Assembly (NCBI GenBank): GCA_902800525.1
Contig: CADCEV010000001.1
Location: 124,001 to 188,000, forward strand
DNA from: an uncultured Bacteroidales bacterium
GTDB taxonomy: Bacteria > Bacteroidota > Bacteroidia > Bacteroidales > Paludibacteraceae
Length of the DNA: 64,000 nt
Reading direction: 5' to 3'
Shown here: piece after piece, positions 1 through 15,691 of the stretch
Layout: the number at the start of each line of letters is the position of its first letter
How positions within the stretch are numbered: position 1 is the stretch's first letter
Translations under genes and position numbers: made by a program
Notes under the pieces: model-generated
What the model was told of the DNA's origin: nothing
Seen by the model: only the letters and a program-made list of their open reading frames with translations
Databases searched by the model: none

Positions 1-1028
1 TCAAACTCATCTTGGCCTTCTCGCTGCAATACATATCTTGGGACAAATTGATCTGGTATGGAATTGGTATGGCGATTATTCCTTTCCTCAACTTACTGAT
101 AAAATTCATATATACACGTAACAAATATAAAGATTTATATCTCTGCCGCTCTTTACTTTGGAAGCCCGAAGTATTCAAACAGATGTTAAATTTTACAAGT
201 TGGAATACATTTGGAGCCTTAGCTCTGGTAGGCAGGAATCAAGGCATCGCCATCGTTCTTAATCTTTTTTATGGTACCGTCATGAATGCCGCCTATGGCA
301 TTGCAAACCAGATCAATGGTGTTATGGGGTTCTTCTCCCAAACATTGCGTAAAAGCATACATCCGCAACTTATGCTAAGTTATGGACGAAACGAGCATGA
401 ACGTATGACACGATTGGTCTTCACATCATCCAAATTTTGCGTATTAGTCATGGGCGTGATCGCGATTCCGCTTATTGTAGAATTACCATTGGTACTGAAT
501 CTATGGCTAACAGATGTACCTCCATACGCTTTGGAATTTACCAGATTGATTCTAATCTTTTCCATGGTATACCAAATGAGTGCAGGTCTTATGGCCGGTA
601 TATTGGCGGTAGGAAAAATGAAAACATACCAGATAGTGATAAGCATTATTATGCTTCTGACACTGCCATTTGCATACTTCATGCTTAAATTAGGCTATGA
701 GCCATACTGGGTACTTATCAGCATGCTTATCTTTGAGATATTAGACCTCGTGGCTCATCTAATCTTCTCTAAACATTTGTTTGACTTGAATATATCTCTG
801 TTTTGTTGGAAAGTGGTTATACCTTTAATCCTTATACTCGGTATATGCTGGCTAACCTTATCAGGAATCACGCATATCATGGAGACATCTTTCCTGCGCC
901 TTATTATCAATAGCGTTGTCAGTGTCATTATCATTGGGTCACTCTCTTGGCTCTTACTCATCAATGATACAGAAAAGAAATCAATTGGACAGTTTGTACA
1001 AAAATTCACCCATAGAAAGGAATCATGA
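1..1028 (+). CDS. Wzx-type polysaccharide flippase, 5' end missing
   Basis: The reading frame is open from the left edge (in frame from base 3), so only the C-terminal part, about 341 residues, is present; the family is usually near 480-500. The protein is almost entirely hydrophobic, with at least eight apparent membrane segments separated by short basic loops, as in the MATE/MVF-type polysaccharide exporters. Its expected role is to flip lipid-linked repeat units across the inner membrane. It overlaps the next gene by ATGA, which ties it to the glycan operon that follows. Family-level assignment rests on membrane topology and context; the substrate cannot be read. Confidence 0.8.
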   Translation, partial: KLILAFSLQYISWDKLIWYGIGMAIIPFLNLLIKFIYTRNKYKDLYLCRSLLWKPEVFKQMLNFTSWNTFGALALVGRNQGIAIVLNLFYGTVMNAAYGIANQINGVMGFFSQTLRKSIHPQLMLSYGRNEHERMTRLVFTSSKFCVLVMGVIAIPLIVELPLVLNLWLTDVPPYALEFTRLILIFSMVYQMSAGLMAGILAVGKMKTYQIVISIIMLLTLPFAYFMLKLGYEPYWVLISMLIFEILDLVAHLIFSKHLFDLNISLFCWKVVIPLILILGICWLTLSGITHIMETSFLRLIINSVVSVIIIGSLSWLLLINDTEKKSIGQFVQKFTHRKES

Positions 1029-6626: not shown

Positions 6627-6657
6627 TTGCATATATTAAAAAAAATTAGTATCTTTG
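6627..6657 (+). promoter_or_regulatory. internal promoter of the polysaccharide cluster
   Basis: TTG at 6627-6629 and TATCTTTG at 6650-6657 with a 20-base spacer match the Bacteroidota primary sigma consensus. It lies in the 63-base gap after the GT4 gene and 22 bases before the ATG of the acyltransferase gene, so the second half of the cluster can be transcribed on its own. Confidence 0.85.
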
Positions 6658-6679: not shown

Positions 6680-7309
6680 ATGAAACAATTAATAATCATA
6701 GGAGCAGGGGGAATGGGACGCACATTCTATGACATGGCACGAGAAAGCATCGGCTATGGAACGGAATATGTGATCAAAGGTTTTATCGACGATAACCTGT
6801 CAGCATTAGATAGTTTTGAAAACTATCCGCCTATGCTGGGCACTATTAGTGATTATCAGCCCCAAGCAGATGAGGTGTTTGTATGCTCTATAGGTGGAGG
6901 CGCACGCCGCAAATGTATGGAAGAGATCATTGCCAAAGGCGGCCAATTCCTAACTATGATTCATAGTACCGCCCGTATTGGAACCAATGTACAAGTAGGT
7001 GAAGGAACCGTAATCGGAGCCTTTACGACATTGGGAGCGGATGTACATGTCGGTAAATGTAATCTCATCCAATCCTACACCGTAATCGGTCATGACACGC
7101 AAATCGGCGATTGGAACAGAATTGACACGCACGTTACGCTCGTTGGCGGAACCAAAGTAGAAGATGAAACGGATATACATACCGGCGCAATGATTAGCCA
7201 TAATGTGACCATAGAGAGTAACTCGCGAGTAGCAGCATGCAGTTTCGTCATCCGTCGCGTCAAAAGCGGAACTACCGTAATGGGTAATCCTGCTAAACGA
7301 TTAATGTAA
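6680..7309 (+). CDS. PglD/NeuD-family sugar acyltransferase
   Basis: The 209-residue protein has an N-terminal Rossmann-like sugar-nucleotide domain (LIIIGAGGMGRTFYDMARE at the start) followed from about residue 95 by left-handed beta-helix hexapeptide repeats. GHDTQIGD near residues 138-145 contains the likely catalytic His of this family, and it ends GNPAKRLM as hexapeptide transferases do. PglD-type enzymes N-acylate UDP-4-amino sugars, normally with acetyl-CoA. Because acyl carrier proteins and acyl-chain enzymes follow immediately, the acyl donor here may instead be an acyl-ACP; that is inference. It is the first gene after the internal promoter. Confidence 0.85.
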   Translation: MKQLIIIGAGGMGRTFYDMARESIGYGTEYVIKGFIDDNLSALDSFENYPPMLGTISDYQPQADEVFVCSIGGGARRKCMEEIIAKGGQFLTMIHSTARIGTNVQVGEGTVIGAFTTLGADVHVGKCNLIQSYTVIGHDTQIGDWNRIDTHVTLVGGTKVEDETDIHTGAMISHNVTIESNSRVAACSFVIRRVKSGTTVMGNPAKRLM

Positions 7310-7325
7310 TTAAAACTATACAAAT

Positions 7326-7553
7326 ATGGATATTAAAGAATTTATTGAGCATTTTGCAGAGCAGTTTGACGAGTTAAACTCCGAATTAACACCGGAAACC
7401 AATTTCCGCCAACTGGAGGAATGGAGTTCGTTAGTAGCATTATTAGTCATCACTATGGTAGATGAGGAGTATGGTATCGTATTACCTCCAGAGGAAATGC
7501 GCAAAACAAATACTATACAAGAATTGTTTGACCTTGTTCAAAGCAAATTATAA
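7326..7553 (+). CDS. acyl carrier protein (first of two)
   Basis: The 75-residue acidic helical protein carries FRQLEEWSSLVALLVITMVD at residues 27-46; the Ser-Leu pair of WSSL aligns with the phosphopantetheine site, although the usual Asp before Ser is Ser here. The rest (EEYGIVLPPEEMRKTNTIQELFDLV) fits helices 3 and 4 of an ACP. It would carry an acyl chain as a thioester for the reductases and ligase next door. Its stop codon overlaps the start of the next gene by one base, so synthesis is coupled. The missing DSL motif lowers certainty slightly. Confidence 0.85.
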   Translation: MDIKEFIEHFAEQFDELNSELTPETNFRQLEEWSSLVALLVITMVDEEYGIVLPPEEMRKTNTIQELFDLVQSKL

Positions 7554-8299
7554 TGTATAATCCTTTCTCACTTTCCAGTAAAACCATTCTGGTTACAGGC
7601 GCTTCCTCCGGTATCGGCAAAGCAACTGCTATAGAGTGCTCTAAAATGGGCGCTACTATCATCATGACCGCACGGAATGAAGAGCGACTGCAAGAAACCA
7701 TGCAACTTCTGGAAGGAGAAGGACATCAGTACATAATTACAGATTTAACCAACGAGGACGCCATCAAACAACTGACAGAACAAGTACCCGAATTGGACGG
7801 TGTGGTATGTGCTGCCGGTATCAGCATGCTAAAGCCCATCCAGGTTTTAGCAGAAAAAGATATTAAAACCATTTTTGACACCAACTATAATGCGCCGGTT
7901 CTTCTGACAAAGACATTAGTCAAAAAACGCAAACTGAATACGGAAGCATCGCTGGTATATATATCTTCTATATCCGGAAACGGCAATACGGCGACAGCAT
8001 TATCACTGTATGGCAGTTCAAAGAGTGCATTGAACAGTTTTGTCAAATATGCCGCTATTGAACTTTCCGGAAAGAGAATCAGGTGCAATACGATCTGCCC
8101 CGGACGCATCGAAACCAAGTTGCTGCAAAACCAGACCATGAACGAAGAGGACTTGGCAAAAGATTTAGCTAAATATCCTCTGCATCGTTACGGCATGCCG
8201 GAGGAGGTTGCGCAAGCGGCTGTTTATCTGTTATCAGACGCGGCGAAATGGATTACAGGAACAAGTATCACCATTGACGGAGGAAGAACTCTGATTTGA
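7553..8299 (+). CDS. SDR oxidoreductase, FabG-like (first of two)
   Basis: The 248-residue protein shows the classical short-chain dehydrogenase pattern: cofactor site TGASSGIGKA (residues 15-24), VYISSISG with the catalytic Ser (about 139-146), LYGSSKSAL with Tyr and Lys spaced YxxxK (about 152-160), and a C-terminal ITGTSITIDGG. FabG-like enzymes reduce 3-oxoacyl-ACP to 3-hydroxyacyl-ACP with NADPH. Its position directly after an ACP gene and before a second SDR supports a carrier-bound substrate. A nucleotide-sugar or free-keto substrate cannot be ruled out. Confidence 0.87.
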   Translation: MYNPFSLSSKTILVTGASSGIGKATAIECSKMGATIIMTARNEERLQETMQLLEGEGHQYIITDLTNEDAIKQLTEQVPELDGVVCAAGISMLKPIQVLAEKDIKTIFDTNYNAPVLLTKTLVKKRKLNTEASLVYISSISGNGNTATALSLYGSSKSALNSFVKYAAIELSGKRIRCNTICPGRIETKLLQNQTMNEEDLAKDLAKYPLHRYGMPEEVAQAAVYLLSDAAKWITGTSITIDGGRTLI

Positions 8300-8301
8300 T
8301 T

Positions 8302-9030
8302 ATGGAACGATTATTGGAAAATAAAATTTGTATTATAACCGGCGCCGCACAAGGCATCGGGCGTGAGATAGCCCGCCGGTTTGCAGAGGACGGAGCAATC
8401 GTCTATGCATGCGACCGACAGGAGTTCACTTCCGATAACGAGCGTATTCATCCGCTGGTGTTTGACATCACGGACGCAGCAGCGGTCAAGGCATCGATGA
8501 TGCAAGTGTTCAAGGCGGAAGGCCGCATTGATGTATTGGTAAACAATGCCGGTGTTGTCTTTAACCGCAAAATCGGAATGATCATGCGTGAGGAGACCGA
8601 ACTGATGTTCCGCATCAATGTGATTGCGGTCCTGGAATTAATTCAGTTAGTGAGCCGACTTATGGCACGCAATGGAGGAGGAAGCATCGTCAATATAGCA
8701 TCTGTCACAGCCGTATTAGGTTCGCCCGGTCAGGTAGCCTACTCCGCTACCAAAGGCGCAATCATCGCCATGACCAAATCCGCAGCCAAAGAGTTGGCTC
8801 CGCAAGGCATCCGCGTCAATGCGGTAGCTCCCGGTATTGTCAAGACAGAGCGTTTTGCAGAGCTATACGAAGCCAACGGAGAGAAGATTGACGAGCGAAT
8901 CAGCCGCATTGCATTAGGACGACTCGGAACACCGGAAGATATCGCGAACGCTTGTTCGTTCCTCGCGAGTGACAGAGCAAGTTATGTCTCCGGACATATT
9001 TTAGGCGTAGATGGATGCGCATCGATTTAA
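8302..9030 (+). CDS. SDR oxidoreductase, FabG-like (second of two)
   Basis: I take ATG at 8302, three bases after the previous stop; a TTG six bases earlier is less likely. The 242-residue product has ITGAAQGIGRE (cofactor glycine motif), NIASVTAVLG (catalytic Ser region), YSATKGA (YxxxK), and ends SGHILGVDGCASI. It closely follows the FabG plan. Two reductases in one cassette suggest either two reduction steps or different substrates, for example one acyl-ACP and one sugar. Its 3' end overlaps the ligase gene. Confidence 0.87.
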   Translation: MERLLENKICIITGAAQGIGREIARRFAEDGAIVYACDRQEFTSDNERIHPLVFDITDAAAVKASMMQVFKAEGRIDVLVNNAGVVFNRKIGMIMREETELMFRINVIAVLELIQLVSRLMARNGGGSIVNIASVTAVLGSPGQVAYSATKGAIIAMTKSAAKELAPQGIRVNAVAPGIVKTERFAELYEANGEKIDERISRIALGRLGTPEDIANACSFLASDRASYVSGHILGVDGCASI

Positions 9031-10384
9031 TATGTTATTGGGATTAGAACATATTGATACTACCCGTTTAGCTGCTATTGACAGCGAAGGCGGAAAACTG
9101 GCTTACGGTGATATACTCAGCCGTGCAAAAGAGATTGAGACCAAGGTCTCGGAAAGAGCGCTGTGTTTCATGTTGGTGGAAAACAACGTGCATTGCATCG
9201 AATGGGTAATGGCTTCTTTAATCAGCTGCAGATTAGTGCCGCTGATTCTGAACGCCAAGACGGACGAAGCATTATACGGGAACTTGTTAGAGACTTACAA
9301 ACCGGCTTACATCTGGCAGAACGGGGAACTCACCCGCACTGATAATCCCATTACTCCGCTCTACCCGGAGTTGTCCCATTTATTGCCAACTTCAGGAAGT
9401 ACAGGAAGCCCAAAGTTAGTACGGCACAAATACGACAATATAGAAGCGGCAGGATTGAATATTTCCACGTTCTTTGAGTTAAAAGAAACGGATCGTCCCT
9501 TGATGGTTCTACCGTTGTATTACACCATGGGACTTTCCATGATATTCAGCCATTTCAAAGTAGGCGCAACGGTGCTCATCACCGGCAGAAACATGACGGA
9601 TCCTGTATTCTGGAAATTCATCAAAGAGGAAGCTGCTACATCGTTTACCGGCGTTCCCTACTCCTTCCAGATATTGAATCTAATGCGGTTCTTCCGCATG
9701 GATCTGCCTGCATTGGAGTTGATGACGCAAGGAGGCGGAAAAATGGAACGGGGTTTGAATCTCAAATTCGCTGAATACTGCCGCGACAACAATAAACGTT
9801 GGATTGCAACTTATGGTCAATCCGAATGTACCGCACGCATGGCTTGGCTCCCCGCTAAATGGGCAATCGAGAAAGTAGGAAGCATAGGAATTGCCGTTCC
9901 AAATGGCGAGTTGAGCCTGATTGACGCAGACGGAAATGCAATAACCACTCCGCACACAGAGGGAGAGATGTGTTATCGAGGCAAGAACGTAACGCTTGGA
10001 TATGCACGTAGCCTTGAAGATCTCACTTTAGGCGATGAGAGAAACGGTTTTATCAGAACAGGCGACTTGGCTTATTTCGATGAAGACGGATGTTATTACA
10101 TCGTTGGCCGTATGGGACGATTCCTTAAACTATTCGGTATGCGTGTCGGATTGGATGAATGCGAGCAGATTATTGCATCGGATTGCCATGCGGAAAGTGC
10201 ATGTGTTGGCACTGACGAGAAGATGATAGTCTATATCACCGACCCGTCTAAAATACAATCCGTTAAAGACGCACTCGTAGAAAAAACACATATTGTAGCT
10301 ACCTCGTTTGAGATCCGGGTCATACCGGAGATTCCTAAAAATGAGGCAGGCAAAAAATTATTCAGTAAACTCGAAAACAAATAA
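9011..10384 (+). CDS. AMP-dependent acyl ligase (ANL superfamily)
   Basis: The 457-residue protein contains the adenylation motifs in order: LPTSGSTGSPKLVRHKY (P-loop, about 127-143), YGQSECTARMAWLP (about 265-278), GEMCYRGKNVTLGYA, RTGDLAYFDEDGCYYIVGR (about 350-368), and a C-terminal Lys region PKNEAGKKLFSKL. It activates a carboxylic acid as acyl-AMP and loads it on a thiol, here probably one of the two adjacent ACPs. It is shorter than typical acyl-CoA synthetases (500-600). The start may be ATG 9011, overlapping the SDR by 20 bases, or ATG 9032 just after its stop. Confidence 0.87.
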   Translation: MDAHRFNMLLGLEHIDTTRLAAIDSEGGKLAYGDILSRAKEIETKVSERALCFMLVENNVHCIEWVMASLISCRLVPLILNAKTDEALYGNLLETYKPAYIWQNGELTRTDNPITPLYPELSHLLPTSGSTGSPKLVRHKYDNIEAAGLNISTFFELKETDRPLMVLPLYYTMGLSMIFSHFKVGATVLITGRNMTDPVFWKFIKEEAATSFTGVPYSFQILNLMRFFRMDLPALELMTQGGGKMERGLNLKFAEYCRDNNKRWIATYGQSECTARMAWLPAKWAIEKVGSIGIAVPNGELSLIDADGNAITTPHTEGEMCYRGKNVTLGYARSLEDLTLGDERNGFIRTGDLAYFDEDGCYYIVGRMGRFLKLFGMRVGLDECEQIIASDCHAESACVGTDEKMIVYITDPSKIQSVKDALVEKTHIVATSFEIRVIPEIPKNEAGKKLFSKLENK

Positions 10385-10389
10385 TTAAT

Positions 10390-10629
10390 ATGACCAACTT
10401 GGAAAAATACAATGACATCTTTGTGCAAGTATTTGGCGCAGATGTAGCTCAGTTAGGAGACAACTATAGTAAGGAAACGGTTGCCGAATGGGATTCTGTA
10501 CACCAACTGAATATCATTTCTCTCATGGAAGAGGCATTCGATTTGATGCTTGATCCTGAAGACATCATGGCTTGTACCAGTTATAATGCCGGCAAAGAGA
10601 TTCTTGCCCGCAATGGTGTAGAGTTATAA
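10390..10629 (+). CDS. acyl carrier protein (second of two)
   Basis: The 79-residue protein has VAEWDSVHQLNIISLMEEAF at about residues 31-50; the DSV triplet contains the phosphopantetheine-accepting Ser. Charge and helix pattern fit an ACP. It differs clearly from the first ACP of the cassette, so the two may serve different partners, such as the ligase upstream and the KAS III downstream. It starts five bases after the ligase stop. The 35-base gap that follows contains imperfect repeats of the word ATCGTAAAT. Confidence 0.9.
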   Translation: MTNLEKYNDIFVQVFGADVAQLGDNYSKETVAEWDSVHQLNIISLMEEAFDLMLDPEDIMACTSYNAGKEILARNGVEL

Positions 10630-10664
10630 ATTGCACATCGTAAATATCTAAATCGTAAATTAAA

Positions 10665-11729
10665 ATGGCTCGTTGGAATATTAAGAATGTACGCGTTGCG
10701 GGTGTGAGTGCTTGCGTTCCTAAAGAAGCAGTACATACCGAAGATTTTCCTTTCTTCGATGCTGAGGGAGCCGAAGTATTCAACAACACCGTAGGCATCC
10801 GGGAACGTCATTTAGGTCCAGATACGCTCTGTGCATCAGACATGTGCCAAGCGGCAGCAGAGAAACTCATCGCAGAATTAGGATGGGAGAAAGAGAGCAT
10901 TGACATGATGGTCTTTGAGTCTGTGACCGCAGATTTTCATCCTACTCCACCTACATCCTGCTTACTCCAAGACAGACTTGGCCTGTCTGAAGATTGTTTC
11001 TGCCTGGACATCCCGATGGGATGCTGCGGATGTATGTACGCTATGAATGTAGCCGGAAATATGCTTTCAAGCGGAAATATCAAACGCGCACTTCTCCTTA
11101 TTGGCGATACGGCTTTACGAATGGGCTCAATGCAGGACAAAAGCCGAGTACCTCTCTTCGGCGATATGGGAACTGCTGTTGCTTTGGAATATGACACAAC
11201 AGCGGAACCTATTCTCATTGATTTTCATACCCAAGGTAGCGGTTACAAAGCGTTGATGACACCTCATGGAGGTTTCCGTCATCCGTTGACACCGGAATCT
11301 TTTATTCAAGAAGATTTTGGCAATGGCATACTCCGCGCTCCAAAAGACACCTTAATAGATGGTATGGCGGTATTTACATTCGCCATCAGCAAACCGGCAA
11401 AGACCGTGGCCAACCTGATGGAAGAACTCAACATCGACAAGGATAACGATATTGATTACTACTTGATCCATCAAGCGAACAAATTGATCGTGGATCGTCT
11501 TGTCAAGAAGCTTAAACTGCCGGTTGAGAAAGTGCCTTATAACTTGGAATCTTTCGGAAATACCGGCGGTGCCAGTGTTCCGGGACTGATGGTAACTCGC
11601 CTGCGTGAGCAACTGCAAAAAGACGAACCGCATCGTTTACTTTGTTCTTCTTTTGGACTTGGTCTTAGCTGGGGAACAATGATATTGAATGTAAAAAATT
11701 TGGTTATTCCGGAATTGATTGAGATTTAA
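10665..11729 (+). CDS. 3-oxoacyl-ACP synthase III-like (KAS III)
   Basis: The 354-residue protein has the KAS III catalytic set: Cys120 in DIPMGCCGCMYAM, His269 in LIHQANKLIVD, and Asn299 in ESFGNTGGASVPG, matching the Cys-His-Asn triad of FabH. Such enzymes condense an acyl-CoA starter with malonyl-ACP. With two ACPs, two FabG-like reductases and an acyl ligase upstream, it is likely to build a short acyl chain for glycan decoration rather than to serve bulk fatty acid synthesis; that is inference from context. It ends the acyl cassette; a 39-base gap follows. Confidence 0.9.
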   Translation: MARWNIKNVRVAGVSACVPKEAVHTEDFPFFDAEGAEVFNNTVGIRERHLGPDTLCASDMCQAAAEKLIAELGWEKESIDMMVFESVTADFHPTPPTSCLLQDRLGLSEDCFCLDIPMGCCGCMYAMNVAGNMLSSGNIKRALLLIGDTALRMGSMQDKSRVPLFGDMGTAVALEYDTTAEPILIDFHTQGSGYKALMTPHGGFRHPLTPESFIQEDFGNGILRAPKDTLIDGMAVFTFAISKPAKTVANLMEELNIDKDNDIDYYLIHQANKLIVDRLVKKLKLPVEKVPYNLESFGNTGGASVPGLMVTRLREQLQKDEPHRLLCSSFGLGLSWGTMILNVKNLVIPELIEI

Positions 11730-11768
11730 TAAGTTCATTATTCATATACACTATGAATTCCACACGTT

Positions 11769-12911
11769 ATGATAAGTAACAATTTTATTCTTATATTAGG
11801 TGGGGGATTACAGGCACTTTCCGTAGCATATTCGCTATGGAAAGAAGGAATTAAACCCATATGCTTGGCAGCAGAAGAGGAAGAGATACGAAACTCCAAA
11901 TTTATCAAACACTTTTATCCTGCTGCACATAAGAATATATGGGAACAAATCATTGACATTATTAGGTCCGAACAAATCAGTTTGATCATTCCAATGAGTG
12001 ACTATTTTGCGGAGCTTGTTAGCAAAAATAAATCCATATTGGAGGCCGAATATCTTTGTCATGTTCCCGTTCCTAAGTTCGATATTTTTCTGCAAGGAGC
12101 AGACAAAGCCAAATTGATGAGATTCTGCGAAGGACATCAGTTTCCGCATCCTCGGACAAGAGATATTGATCTCACTAATATAGAAACAGCTGCAAAATAT
12201 GTCAAGTTTCCGGCTCTGATTAAACCGAACCGATCCGTTGGAGCCCGGGGCATCAAACTGGTTCACTCATTATCGGAACTTACAAAAGAGTTGCCAAGCA
12301 CTCTGAAGAATTATGGTAGTACGACCTTGCAAGAATATATAGACACCAATGATGCACCATATTACAATGTGATGCTCTATCGTTCTAAAAACGGAGTAAT
12401 ACTGGGCTCTACTATCATTGAAATCCTTCGATTCTACCCCATCAAAGGAGGAAGTAGTTCGTTATGCCGAACAATAGAGGAACCAAACTTATTGAATATC
12501 TGTTCTAAAGTGTTAGACAAACTCCAATGGGTTGGAATGGCTGATTTTGATGTGCTTAAAAATCAGTATGGAGAATACAAAATCATAGAAATCAACCCCC
12601 GTGTTCCTGCTTCTTTGCGCGCAGCAGATATTGCCGGAGTTAACTTTCCGATGCTTATGCTTGCGGATTCGCTAAACGTAACAATACCACGATATTCCTA
12701 TAAAAAGAATATGTATCTGCGTTATTTGGGACTGGATTTGATGTGGTTTATTCAATCTCCGAAACGTTTTACGAACAAACCAAACTGGTTCTTGTCAATA
12801 GGACGTAACTTTTATTTTCAAGATATATATGCCAAAGATCCATCAACTTGGTTCTCTTGGTTAATTAACGGCTTTAAACGTTTCTTAAAGAAACGCAAAC
12901 ACATGCAATGA
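11769..12911 (+). CDS. ATP-grasp domain protein (CPSase L-chain-like)
   Basis: The 380-residue protein begins ILILGGGLQALSVAYSLWKE, a Rossmann-like pre-ATP-grasp domain, then the ATP-grasp core: FPALIKPNRSVGARGIKLVH (about 149-168), TTLQEYID, and the metal-binding EINPRVPASLRAADIAG (about 275-291). It should ligate a carboxylate to an amine or thiol with ATP. It is a different subfamily from the ATP-grasp at 4467. In this locus the likely acceptor is an amino sugar or its acyl substituent. It overlaps the deacetylase gene by four bases. Confidence 0.83.
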   Translation: MISNNFILILGGGLQALSVAYSLWKEGIKPICLAAEEEEIRNSKFIKHFYPAAHKNIWEQIIDIIRSEQISLIIPMSDYFAELVSKNKSILEAEYLCHVPVPKFDIFLQGADKAKLMRFCEGHQFPHPRTRDIDLTNIETAAKYVKFPALIKPNRSVGARGIKLVHSLSELTKELPSTLKNYGSTTLQEYIDTNDAPYYNVMLYRSKNGVILGSTIIEILRFYPIKGGSSSLCRTIEEPNLLNICSKVLDKLQWVGMADFDVLKNQYGEYKIIEINPRVPASLRAADIAGVNFPMLMLADSLNVTIPRYSYKKNMYLRYLGLDLMWFIQSPKRFTNKPNWFLSIGRNFYFQDIYAKDPSTWFSWLINGFKRFLKKRKHMQ

Positions 12912-13792
12912 ACATACTAACTTTCGACATAGAAGAATGGGCATTGGAGACCGGTCGCTCAGGAGGAGCACGCCCCGAGAAGATAGCAGAGTATGACAGA
13001 ATGTTAAAACAGTTGTTAGAACTGTTATCTAAACGTGGTATACATGCTACATGTTTCTGCACCGGGAAAATGGCAGAAACATACCCTCATATTATCAGAC
13101 TTCTTGCAGACAATGGGCATGAGATTGCATGCCATTCATATATTCATACATGGTGCAACAAGATGTCTCCTGGACAAATGCAAGAGGACACTCATGCTGC
13201 CGTTGATGCGTTGGAACAATGCATCGGAAAAAAAATTAAAGGCTATAGAGCTCCCGCCTTTTCTATCACGGAAAAGAATTTATGGGCATTTGAGATACTG
13301 GCGCAAAACGGAATAGAATATGATGCCTCCGTCTTTCCTGCCAAACGGGATTTTGGCGGCTTTCCTTCATTTGGATATGACGTCCCCACTCTAATTCAAT
13401 ACAAAGATATTAAAATCAAGGAATACCCTATTCCGCTATTGCATATCGGCAGTTGGAAAACCGCATACTCAGGTGGCGGCTATTTCCGGCTTTTTCCTTA
13501 TAATATTATTCAACGGACGATGAATAAGTCTGATTATGCTATGACATATTTTCATTTGAATGATTTGATCTCTGAGCCCAAGAAATTAATGACCCGCGAA
13601 GCATACGAAAGATATTTTAAGGAGAAAGGGACATTGATCAATCGCTACAAACGTTTTATCAAAAGTAGTATTGGCACAGGCGATTCAATGGGTAAACTTG
13701 TCAAACTGATTAGGGAAAACGACTTTGTCAATATAGAAACAGCAGGAAAACAAATTGATTGGACAGAAACTCCAATTGTAAAATTGTCGTAA
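12908..13792 (+). CDS. NodB-type polysaccharide deacetylase
   Basis: The 294-residue protein has TFDIEEW near residue 5 (catalytic/metal Asp), ATCFCTGKMA, the zinc ligands in CHSYIHTW (HxxxH, about 76-83), and GYRAPAFSI (about 114-122). This layout is that of carbohydrate esterase family 4 with the longer C-terminal part seen in exopolysaccharide loci. No signal peptide is visible, so it may act on a lipid-linked intermediate in the cytosol. It would remove N-acetyl groups from a HexNAc, exposing an amine that other cassette enzymes might acylate. Confidence 0.87.
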   Translation: MNILTFDIEEWALETGRSGGARPEKIAEYDRMLKQLLELLSKRGIHATCFCTGKMAETYPHIIRLLADNGHEIACHSYIHTWCNKMSPGQMQEDTHAAVDALEQCIGKKIKGYRAPAFSITEKNLWAFEILAQNGIEYDASVFPAKRDFGGFPSFGYDVPTLIQYKDIKIKEYPIPLLHIGSWKTAYSGGGYFRLFPYNIIQRTMNKSDYAMTYFHLNDLISEPKKLMTREAYERYFKEKGTLINRYKRFIKSSIGTGDSMGKLVKLIRENDFVNIETAGKQIDWTETPIVKLS

Positions 13793-13793
13793 C

Positions 13794-14402
13794 ATGTATA
13801 AGTATTTTTTGAAACGAATATTTGATTTTACGTTGGCACTGGTGGTTATCTTGTGCCTCAGTCCGATATTGATTGTAGTCACTATCTGGCTGCATTTTGC
13901 CAATAAGGGTGCAGGAGCGTTCTTCACCCAAGAGCGTCCGGGAAAGGGAGAAAAGATTTTCCATGTAGTGAAGTTCAAATCCATGACCGATGAACGCGAT
14001 GAGAAAGGAAATCTCCTTCCCGATGAGAAACGCCTGACACCAATCGGCAATTTTATCCGCAAGACATCCATTGATGAACTTCCCCAGTTGTTCAATGTGC
14101 TGAAAGGCGACATGGCATTGATTGGACCAAGACCGCTGTTAGTCAAATACTTACCACTCTACTCTCCCGAACAACACAGGCGTCATGAAGTGCGGCCGGG
14201 TATTACGGGATGGGCACAAGTAAATGGACGTAATGCCATTTCGCACACAAAAAAATTTGAATATGACGTATGGTATGTAGATCATTTGAGTTTGGGCTTG
14301 GATATCAAAATAATTTTTATGACAATACATAATGTCTTGCATCGTAAAGATATTTCTCACGAAGGAGCTGCTACCGCAGAAACATTTAATGGACACAATT
14401 GA
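13794..14402 (+). CDS. PglC-like phosphoglycosyl transferase (initiating sugar transferase)
   Basis: The 202-residue protein has one N-terminal re-entrant hydrophobic helix (KRIFDFTLALVVILCLSP), then QERPGKGEKIFHVVKFKSM, the catalytic Asp-Glu pair in TSIDELPQLFNVLKGDM, and RPGITGWAQVNGRNA. Size and motifs fit the small monotopic PGT family (PglC, WcaJ C-terminal domain), which transfers a sugar phosphate from a UDP-sugar to undecaprenyl phosphate and starts repeat-unit assembly. It begins one base after the deacetylase stop codon. Confidence 0.92.
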   Translation: MYKYFLKRIFDFTLALVVILCLSPILIVVTIWLHFANKGAGAFFTQERPGKGEKIFHVVKFKSMTDERDEKGNLLPDEKRLTPIGNFIRKTSIDELPQLFNVLKGDMALIGPRPLLVKYLPLYSPEQHRRHEVRPGITGWAQVNGRNAISHTKKFEYDVWYVDHLSLGLDIKIIFMTIHNVLHRKDISHEGAATAETFNGHN

Positions 14403-14416
14403 TTAATCAAATTCTT

Positions 14417-15691
14417 ATGGAAAGAAAAACTATATATTTATGCTTGGCTCATATGTCCGAAGAGGGATTAGAGCAAAAGTACATCAAAGAGGCGTTTGAC
14501 ACAAATTGGGTTGTACCTCTGGGACCGAATGTCAATGCCTTTGAGGAAGACCTCAAGAAGTTCGTCAATTCGCAGGAAAACGGCAGTGAAAATCCGAATA
14601 GAGAAATTGTTGCGCTTTCTGCCGGAACGGCGGCTATACACTTGGCATTGATTGCTTGCGGCGTACAAGCAGGAGATGAAGTTATTTGTCAGTCATTTAC
14701 CTTCTGTGCATCCGCGAACCCCGTTACTTATATCGGTGCTACACCTGTATTCATCGATTCTGAAAAAGACTCATGGAACATGGATCCCGAATTACTAGAA
14801 AAAGCCATTGTTGATCGTAAAGCCAAAACCGGCAAATATCCGAAAGCCATTATCCCTGTTGCACTGTATGGTATGCCTTATCGCATTGAGAGAATCATGG
14901 AAATCGCTAATAAATACGGCATTCCTGTGATTGAAGATGCCGCAGAAGGTATGGGTAGCCGTTGGAAAGGACAAGTTTTGGGCACATTCGGTACTTTCGG
15001 AATCTTGTCTTTCAATGGAAACAAGATGATCACCACTTCCGGTGGCGGAGCTCTGATTTGTAAAGATGCCGAAGCTAAGAATAAAGTAATGTGGCTGGCG
15101 ACACAAGCACGCGAGGCTTATCCGTATTACCAGCATGAAACAATCGGCTTCAACTATCGTCTCTCCAATATCTGCGCAGGTATAGGTCGCGGCCAGATGA
15201 CGATTCTGGATAAACACTTGGCACATCATAGACATGTTCAAGCCCGCTATGCAGAGTTGTTGAAAGATGTTCCGGGTATTCATCTACATGAGGCGCCGAA
15301 CGCTGATTTTGATGCAAACTATTGGCTTTGTACCATCACTATTGATCCGGAGGTTCGCATCAAAGGACAAGAAAATGCTTACAAAGAGACCGTTAAATCC
15401 GCTGTCGGAGGAGCAGCTGGTGTAATCCACCAAGTGGACTCACCAACTACTGACTGCCAGCCAAATGAGAACGTAGAAGCACTGCGCGTATATATGTTGG
15501 AGCGCAAGATTGAGGCTCGCCCTGTTTGGAAACCGATGCACAAACAGCCTGTTTTCAAAAATTCACCGGCGTACGTTAATGGCGTGAGCGAGGCTATCTT
15601 CAAAGTCGGAATGTGCTTGCCCGCTGGTCCAATGGTAACGGACGAAGATATCGAATATATTGTTGAGTCTATCAAAAGCGCAATCCTTTAA
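14417..15691 (+). CDS. DegT/DnrJ/EryC1/StrS-family sugar aminotransferase
   Basis: I use ATG 14417; a TTG at 14399 would overlap the previous gene. The product (424 residues) has ALSAGTAAIHLALIACG (PLP phosphate contacts), VIEDAAEGMGS, and LSFNGNKMITTSGGG with the PLP-binding Lys. DegT enzymes put an amino group on a 4-keto or 3-keto UDP/dTDP-sugar with glutamate as donor. With the PglD-like and PglC-like genes it could form a bacillosamine-type pathway; the required 4,6-dehydratase (PglF-like) is not in the window. Confidence 0.92.
   Translation: MERKTIYLCLAHMSEEGLEQKYIKEAFDTNWVVPLGPNVNAFEEDLKKFVNSQENGSENPNREIVALSAGTAAIHLALIACGVQAGDEVICQSFTFCASANPVTYIGATPVFIDSEKDSWNMDPELLEKAIVDRKAKTGKYPKAIIPVALYGMPYRIERIMEIANKYGIPVIEDAAEGMGSRWKGQVLGTFGTFGILSFNGNKMITTSGGGALICKDAEAKNKVMWLATQAREAYPYYQHETIGFNYRLSNICAGIGRGQMTILDKHLAHHRHVQARYAELLKDVPGIHLHEAPNADFDANYWLCTITIDPEVRIKGQENAYKETVKSAVGGAAGVIHQVDSPTTDCQPNENVEALRVYMLERKIEARPVWKPMHKQPVFKNSPAYVNGVSEAIFKVGMCLPAGPMVTDEDIEYIVESIKSAIL

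Follow-up and report, generated by a model that had tools for sequence, protein, structure and literature searches.

An acyl-carrier-protein cassette with its own ligase, found in Bacteroidales polysaccharide loci, may supply hydroxyacyl groups to a surface-glycan amino sugar

Results

The window analysed in this study is a stretch of 64,000 nucleotides from an uncultured Bacteroidales bacterium of the Paludibacteraceae (assembly GCA_902800525.1, contig CADCEV010000001.1, positions 124,001 to 188,000), and its subject is a block of seven genes at positions 6680 to 11729, embedded in a polysaccharide locus. The initial annotation had listed these genes in this order and at these coordinates, and all seven frames were confirmed on the plus strand. 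The first encodes a PglD/VioB-like left-handed beta-helix N-acyltransferase with a catalytic His138-Asp139 pair (6680..7309; PglD_N, E 9.7e-08; Hexapep, E 2.5e-16). It is followed by a first acyl carrier protein (ACP), ACP1, with Ser35 (7326..7553; PP-binding, E 4e-06), which is proposed to be the extension carrier, and by two short-chain dehydrogenase/reductases (SDRs). SDR1 is FabG-like, has Arg41 after beta2 and is a proposed 3-ketoacyl reductase (7553..8299; adh_short, E 2.8e-41), and SDR2 has Asp38 after beta2 and is a proposed starter-side reductase (8302..9030; adh_short, E 7e-52). The fifth gene encodes an AMP-forming ligase (LIG), a proposed acid:ACP ligase with the P-loop TSGSTG at residues 120-125 and Lys441 (9032..10384; AMP-binding, E 5.1e-37 for the frame starting at 9011). 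Next comes ACP2 with Ser36 (10390..10629), for which a role as starter carrier is proposed from its D35-S36 site and its clustering with LIG, and the last is a ketoacyl-ACP synthase III (KAS III; 10665..11729; ACP_syn_III_C, E 1.7e-21). Six of the seven frames thus had Pfam or NCBIfam support (PglD_N with Hexapep, PP-binding for ACP1, adh_short twice, AMP-binding and ACP_syn_III). ACP2 had no match in Pfam (E≤0.01) or NCBIfam (E≤0.001), although it does carry a W-D-S-V site. Two start codons were corrected. The LIG start was moved from 9011 to ATG 9032 (450 aa), the most likely start: of 17 related loci (L002-L018), 11 give a match that starts no earlier than residue 8 of the 9011 frame. The SDR2 start was moved to ATG 8302. 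With these starts the spacing between genes runs from -1 to +35 bp, whereas the 9011 start would give one overlap of -20.

Related loci (numbered L) were scanned with hidden Markov models made in house from the window genes and their close relatives. A first scan of genome contigs with KAS III gave 18 related loci. The genus sample consisted of 101 genomes, including that of the window (G000), and the order sample of 393. The genus sample held 50 KAS III places in 38 genomes, and 43 stretches covered the 49 that lie outside the window; 18 further stretches from genus and order searches and seven plasmid regions were added. After removal of eight duplicates the survey comprised 76 distinct clusters with a KAS or LIG, and since loci were found through KAS III or LIG the layout counts below are not an unbiased survey.

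The exact order of seven genes was present in 22 distinct loci, window included, and therefore chance is excluded. These come from records named Paludibacteraceae, Prevotellaceae, Butyricimonas and Parabacteroides, among others, and 14 of the 101 genus genomes, that of the window included, have the full order. Two carriers have names, Butyricimonas synergistica DSM 23225 (L017) and Parabacteroides distasonis (L082). The latter record (NZ_OY725780.1) is a 19-kb circle labelled as a plasmid that holds a polysaccharide locus with the full cassette, and could represent either a fragment of the assembly or a locus that has been excised. Two other loci (L011 and L015) are truncated by contig ends, and a third (L069) preserves the order but with only six of the genes. 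The checked catalytic residues of the seven proteins were invariant in all 22 full loci, and R41 of SDR1 was kept in 21. The invariant residues include H138 and D139 of the acyltransferase, S35 of ACP1, D35-S36 of ACP2, N111/S139/Y153/K157 of SDR1 and 16 motif residues of LIG. The intact Cys-His-Asn triad that had been read in KAS III is C120/H269/N299, invariant in 22 of 22. Relatives of this KAS in Azospirillum lie among sugar genes, with no annotated ligase cassette in the 2 of 15 Azospirillum records that were viewed. The genus also contains a second, remote kind of locus (L021, L026, L028, L029, L030 and L031) with ACP1-, SDR1- and KAS-like genes and no PglD match.

The block is linked to genes for an amino sugar. 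Downstream of it, on the same strand, lie a PglC-like initiating sugar-phosphate transferase (13794..14402; Bac_transf PF02397, E 4.8e-63) and a PglE/LegC-like 4-aminotransferase (14399..15691; DegT, E 2.2e-87; 339.6 bits against the LegC family, below the cut-off of 420). A 676-aa PglF/CapD-like frame is found on another contig of the same genome, and the acceptor is likely UDP-Qui2NAc4N, judging from these genes. A PglC homolog (E≤1e-60) was present in 20 of the 101 genus genomes, 18 of which have a LIG cluster. In the stretches fetched from the other two, G013 and G054 (L080, L081 and L033), there was no LIG, and a third genome (G005) has a LIG cluster (L047) without a PglC homolog at E≤1e-60. 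One of those stretches is a PglC/PglE locus of the same genus that has IspD, FemAB-like and ATP-grasp genes in the place of the acyl cassette (L080:2422-8538); the six genes scanned there included these three families and no PglD.

It had been stated beforehand that the proposal would fall if the ACPs and KAS III were conserved only with housekeeping fatty acid genes. This is not the case. A KAS III match (PF08541) was found in 38 of the 101 genus genomes and in none of the other 63, so the cassette enzyme lacks the presence across the genus expected of a housekeeping FabH and does not have a housekeeping role. The same was seen among genomes with completeness of 90% or more and contamination of 5% or less, where 22 of 42 had no match. 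An explanation in which housekeeping fatty acid initiation was moved into the polysaccharide locus could appeal to the fact that the cassette enzyme is the only KAS III found in the window's genome, which is 92.7% complete. However, these absences, and an ACP and a ketosynthase that adjoin elsewhere in that genome (C2:74909 and C2:75213), leave this explanation scarcely credible. Fatty acid synthesis in the genus seems to start without a FabH of the PF08541 family, unless the search missed it. The same genome also has a cluster of ketosynthase and ACP matches (C4:95701-102538) and, on contig C5, a 2378-aa frame with two ACP domains.

A tree of KAS III proteins (58 rows; L069, L082 and L083 were fetched later and are not in it) placed the window protein in a 30-row clade (support 98/87). 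Each of the 28 LIG loci in the tree contributes one KAS to this clade, and its other two rows come from L019, a locus with a weak LIG relative (126 bits). KAS proteins encoded next to ACP1 formed a separate clade of six rows (100/100). The presence of LIG was clustered on the tree, requiring 4 changes compared to 19.5 when shuffled. A second P. distasonis record has a short unannotated KAS-like frame (156 bits) after the SDR of its ligase cassette (L083:12169-12528), perhaps the remnant of a second KAS.

LIG and ACP2 occur in one cluster in 34 of 39 LIG clusters, and a KAS is present in 31 of the 39. This pair behaves as separable from ACP1, SDR1 and KAS; L064, for instance, retains PglD, SDR2, LIG and ACP2 but has none of those three. 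Another comparison is between two loci from congeneric genomes, L055 and L056, which share 95.0% DNA identity across 8.6 kb up to the end of SDR1 and 94.4% across 5.9 kb from the PglC frame onward. Between these arms there was no blastn match at 1e-10, the encoded proteins are distant homologs, and one locus has SDR2-LIG-ACP2-KAS where the other has KAS-ACP2-LIG. Each locus carries one KAS from the LIG-linked clade and one from the clade next to ACP1. The difference resembles the outcome of a swap, in nature, of a ligase-ACP2-KAS block. Other loci lack the ligase (L025, L040 and L043) and have the layout PglD-ACP1-KAS-SDR1-KAS. A different use of the starter genes, perhaps for a branched or extended sugar, is suggested by two loci in which relatives of LIG, ACP2 and SDR2 stand with a split transketolase (L065:6481-10704 and L067:6586-13043), the second of which adds LuxE and LuxC. 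Matches of LIG in phmmer searches were generic, a DltA-type chain (7r27) appearing at E 5.1e-12. Prediction of the ligase substrate was dropped, as the matches were of this generic kind and the predicted local distance difference test score (pLDDT) of the LIG model is below 50 through residues 259-369 and 119-147.

The acyltransferase belongs to the PglD/NeuD/VioB group, having the PglD_N domain, the hexapeptide beta-helix and the catalytic His, and it scores 160.2 bits against NeuD_NnaD (TIGR03570), just below the cut-off of 160.8. Its top sequence match in the PDB, and its nearest solved structure, is VioB (7txp, E 6.2e-27). The AlphaFold model has a predicted template modelling score (pTM) of 0.50; structure matches in the PDB superpose poorly, and none had E≤0.001. 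Modelling of the acyl pocket was therefore dropped, the model being too weak for it. The acyltransferases of the 22 full cassettes fall on one side of a branch (82/79, bootstrap not settled), and those of L062 and L064 lie just outside them, with 98/94 for all 24. Characterised PglD, VioB and PglB relatives are acetyltransferases according to the titles of their structures, and such enzymes use acetyl-CoA as the donor. This raises the question of whether the window enzyme simply acetylates a 4-amino sugar beside a passenger set of ACP and KAS genes for a lipid or secondary metabolite. However, the gene order is fixed with the acyltransferase first, PglC homologs in the genus are accompanied by LIG clusters in the proportion given above, and the GMGS stretch of VioB is AACS in the window protein (A186 and S188 in 22 of 22 full loci, C187 in 21). 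Simple acetylation is considered highly improbable on these grounds.

In SDRs an Asp after beta2 goes with NADH and an Arg with NADPH. By this rule SDR1 would be of the NADPH type (Arg41) and SDR2 of the NAD(H) type (Asp38). Asp38 was found in all 27 SDR2 homologs that share a cluster with LIG, and the homologs without LIG in the cluster (L072 and L077) have Glu and Thr, respectively, at this position. The best PDB matches of SDR2 are 4nbu and 4nbt, both given as NAD-bound in PMC5264612, and its closest resemblance is to NADH-dependent FabG. SDR1 occurs in diverged forms: in 11 cassette pairs whose KAS proteins share 88% identity or more, SDR1 identity falls below 62%. For example, the SDR1 proteins of L012 (6757-7497) and L018 (6852-7598) are 51% identical, and the same pair has 98% identity in ACP1 and 94% in KAS; another diverged comparison is the window SDR1 (7553-8299) with L002:6926-7666. 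Exchanged forms of SDR1 thus appear to exist in otherwise very similar cassettes, and a change of stereochemistry is one possible reason.

The initial annotation also placed the block behind an internal promoter. A Bacteroidota-type motif, TTG-N20-TATCTTTG, is found at 6627..6657 on the plus strand, at -53/-30 relative to the acyltransferase ATG. In 17 of the 22 loci the 120 bp ahead of the acyltransferase start contain the pattern TTG-N17-22-TAnnTTTG, compared to 0.165 expected from mononucleotide shuffles, and in 13 of the 17 its TTG is at -50 to -54. No such pattern was found within that distance in L009, L013, L016, L017 or L082. A predicted promoter ahead of the seven genes is therefore supported by a conserved motif, which is not proof.

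Upstream of the block are a pyruvyl transferase, two group-1 glycosyltransferases, a WbsX-type glycosyltransferase and a sugar-transfer ATP-grasp protein, and the first frame of the window (12-1028) had no Pfam family match. An ATP-grasp protein and an XrtA-like polysaccharide deacetylase are encoded between KAS III and PglC (11769-13792). This pair was rejected as part of the cassette since strong matches to both were otherwise found only in L039 among the loci compared; deacetylase matches in the six loci of the remote kind were all weak and none strong. No MBOAT protein was found among ten proteins scanned from 6680-15691, nor among another set of seven scanned.

Discussion

The model favored here, which is regarded as probable but with clear reservations, is that LIG primes ACP2, KAS III and malonyl-ACP1 extend the chain, SDR1 reduces it, and the acyltransferase transfers the resulting 3-hydroxyacyl group to a UDP-4-amino sugar destined for a surface glycan. 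A free carboxylic acid would first be activated by LIG and loaded onto ACP2, and where SDR2 is present this NADH-type reductase would adjust the starter. KAS III would then condense the ACP2-borne acyl group with malonyl-ACP1, the malonyl coming from housekeeping fatty acid synthesis, and SDR1 would reduce the 3-keto group. Since the seven genes include no dehydratase, enoyl reductase or thioesterase, the chain is expected to stop at 3-hydroxyacyl-ACP1. The PglD-like enzyme would transfer the acyl group to the 4-amino group of UDP-Qui2NAc4N, itself presumably made by the PglF homolog encoded elsewhere in the genome and the PglE-like aminotransferase, and the PglC-like enzyme would start the repeat unit with the acylated sugar. 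The initial annotation had already suggested that KAS III extends a starter, that an SDR makes the 3-hydroxyacyl-ACP and that the PglD-like enzyme transfers it. Comparative genomics supports that part, a dedicated acyl-ACP route beside PglC and PglE with KAS III extending and SDR1 reducing. What the earlier proposal did not include was the role of LIG and ACP2, the separability of the units and the published precedents.

Several observations weigh against this model. Five of the 39 LIG clusters have no recognised ACP2 (L067, L068, L083, L085 and L086), though in L067 an ACP2 lies about 2.5 kb away, L068 is a contig of 7.5 kb, L083 has a second annotated ACP, and the LIG relatives of L085 and L086 are remote and sit inside longer proteins. 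Conversely, three ACP2-like matches were in clusters without LIG, and SDR2 is missing from the KAS-bearing ligase clusters L032, L056, L062 and L083. The presence of LIG still needs its 4 changes on the KAS tree, in which the placement of L019 (two rows), L032 and L047, all on long branches, is uncertain, and most KAS relatives in the order lack such a ligase (KAS at E≤1e-60 in 61 of 393 genomes, LIG in 8). LIG could yield acyl-CoA rather than acyl-ACP2. The sugar may also differ between carriers, because the genes upstream in the P. distasonis locus are a dTDP-glucose 4,6-dehydratase and a DegT aminotransferase. Finally, L064 has PglD-SDR2-LIG-ACP2 without ACP1, SDR1 or KAS III, and its genome (G211) has no KAS relative at E≤1e-60, weaker relatives not having been sought; at the same cutoff and with the same limit, five of the eight order genomes with LIG (E≤1e-60), this one included, had no KAS relative. 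Since L064 keeps an acyltransferase close to those of full cassettes without the extension genes, a strict size filter in this enzyme is disfavored, and either an unextended acyl group may be a substrate of the enzyme or LIG may load a complete acid.

The latter option leads to a model without elongation, in which LIG loads a finished acid onto ACP2 for direct transfer and ACP1, SDR1 and KAS III make the acid or some other product. Besides L064, a Metabacillus plasmid gives it some support, with ACP-LIG-MBOAT placing a LIG relative (40% identity) beside an acyltransferase with no annotated KAS. However, the extension genes are present in all 22 full cassettes, and ACP1 and SDR1 stand between the acyltransferase and LIG. 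A model without elongation is therefore judged very unlikely for the window.

If elongation by KAS III and SDR1 is accepted, the product can be guessed. LIG might load acetoacetate or 3-hydroxybutyrate, SDR2 might set the 3-hydroxyl, and one round of extension would give 3,5-dihydroxyhexanoyl; this is a quite unlikely guess in itself. A broader model is offered tentatively, as it falls a little short of an even chance. Gut Bacteroidales would N-acylate the initial sugar of a surface glycan by means of a split mini polyketide line, swappable by recombination, with a starter unit of LIG, ACP2 and KAS, with or without SDR2, and a finishing and transfer unit of ACP1, SDR1, sometimes another KAS, and PglD. 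If this is true, the starter unit sets the acid and swapping one 3-kb block would change the acyl group on the surface. The cassette probably gives this gut bacterium a swappable means of varying its surface coat. The layouts of the loci suggest a readable code in which the number of KAS III genes and the presence of a ligase indicate the chain type. L055 and L056 represent a natural experiment in swapping starter units, and the two named carriers, B. synergistica DSM 23225 and P. distasonis, make the acyl prediction open to glycan chemistry.

Parts of this system have known counterparts. In DltA-DltC an AMP-forming D-alanyl ligase works with its own small carrier and feeds an MBOAT transferase. 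LIG likewise has a carrier gene beside it, in the LIG clusters that also hold ACP2, and loading of that carrier would be by analogy; the Dlt system differs from the window in its MBOAT partner and in having no KAS and no sugar N-acyltransferase. Flagellin islands of Aeromonas (PMC7874193) and Enterobacteriaceae (PMC4875605) place an ACP, a FabG-like SDR and an AMP-dependent or CoA ligase beside sugar genes, and thus resemble the starter unit of the cassette as well as the sets of L065 and L067. These islands are linked to LuxE and LuxC, however, and in the portions of the two papers used here neither a KAS III nor a PglD-like gene is named.

Two precedents are close. The viosamine island of Pseudomonas syringae, vioA-vioB-vioS-vioR-acp, is reported to give 4-N-(3-hydroxybutanoyl) viosamine, a modification lost in a mutant of the reductase gene vioR (PMC3927599). 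As described in the excerpts of that report, the island shares with the window a KAS III, a 3-oxoacyl-ACP reductase, an ACP, a VioB acyltransferase and an aminotransferase. This raises the possibility that the window works in the same way, KAS III joining acetyl-CoA to malonyl-ACP1, SDR1 reducing, 3-hydroxybutyryl being transferred, and LIG, ACP2 and SDR2 serving another modification. The core gene set is there, and VioB is also the acyltransferase's nearest solved structure. However, the seven genes named in those excerpts include neither a ligase nor a second ACP or SDR, and the window has all three; every one of the 22 full loci keeps LIG and ACP2 within the cassette, KAS III is in the ligase-linked clade, and a KAS of that clade sits in the exchanged block with LIG and ACP2 in L055/L056. 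A mechanism of the viosamine type is therefore regarded as unlikely. The two systems also differ in that the sugar is dTDP-linked and placed on flagellin in P. syringae, whereas a polysaccharide repeat unit is proposed for the window.

The other precedent is from the Bacteroidota. The wfpC-G genes of Flavobacterium psychrophilum, in an O-polysaccharide locus, are predicted to place 3,5-dihydroxyhexanoyl on Qui2NAc4N, and the genes for this R-group differ from strain to strain and are associated with antigenic differences (PMC6519341). On the description in that paper's main text, the two share a polysaccharide locus with PglE, PglC and PglD homologs, an ACP, a KAS and a reductase. The wfp set has two KAS and one named ACP, and the word ligase is absent from the paper's main text, whereas the window combines a single KAS with two ACPs, two SDRs and a ligase; this comparison is by description. 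The ligase-free loci L025, L040 and L043 match the set put forward for 3,5-dihydroxyhexanoyl in F. psychrophilum (PMC6519341). That acyl group is also the one guessed here for the window; in F. psychrophilum its predicted synthesis uses two KAS and names no ligase. Among the matches listed from open-licence PMC papers (supplements excluded), no paper described a Bacteroidota cassette combining a ligase, two ACPs, a KAS III and a PglD or the exchange of units, and no description of gut Bacteroidales glycans with such acyl genes was among the open-licence PMC papers listed. N-acylation of sugars by an ACP route is thus known already, with mutant and mass data in P. syringae and as a prediction in F. 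psychrophilum. What seems new is the ligase-primed version of seven genes, which would start from a ready-made acid with its own enzyme and carrier, together with the exchange of its units between loci.

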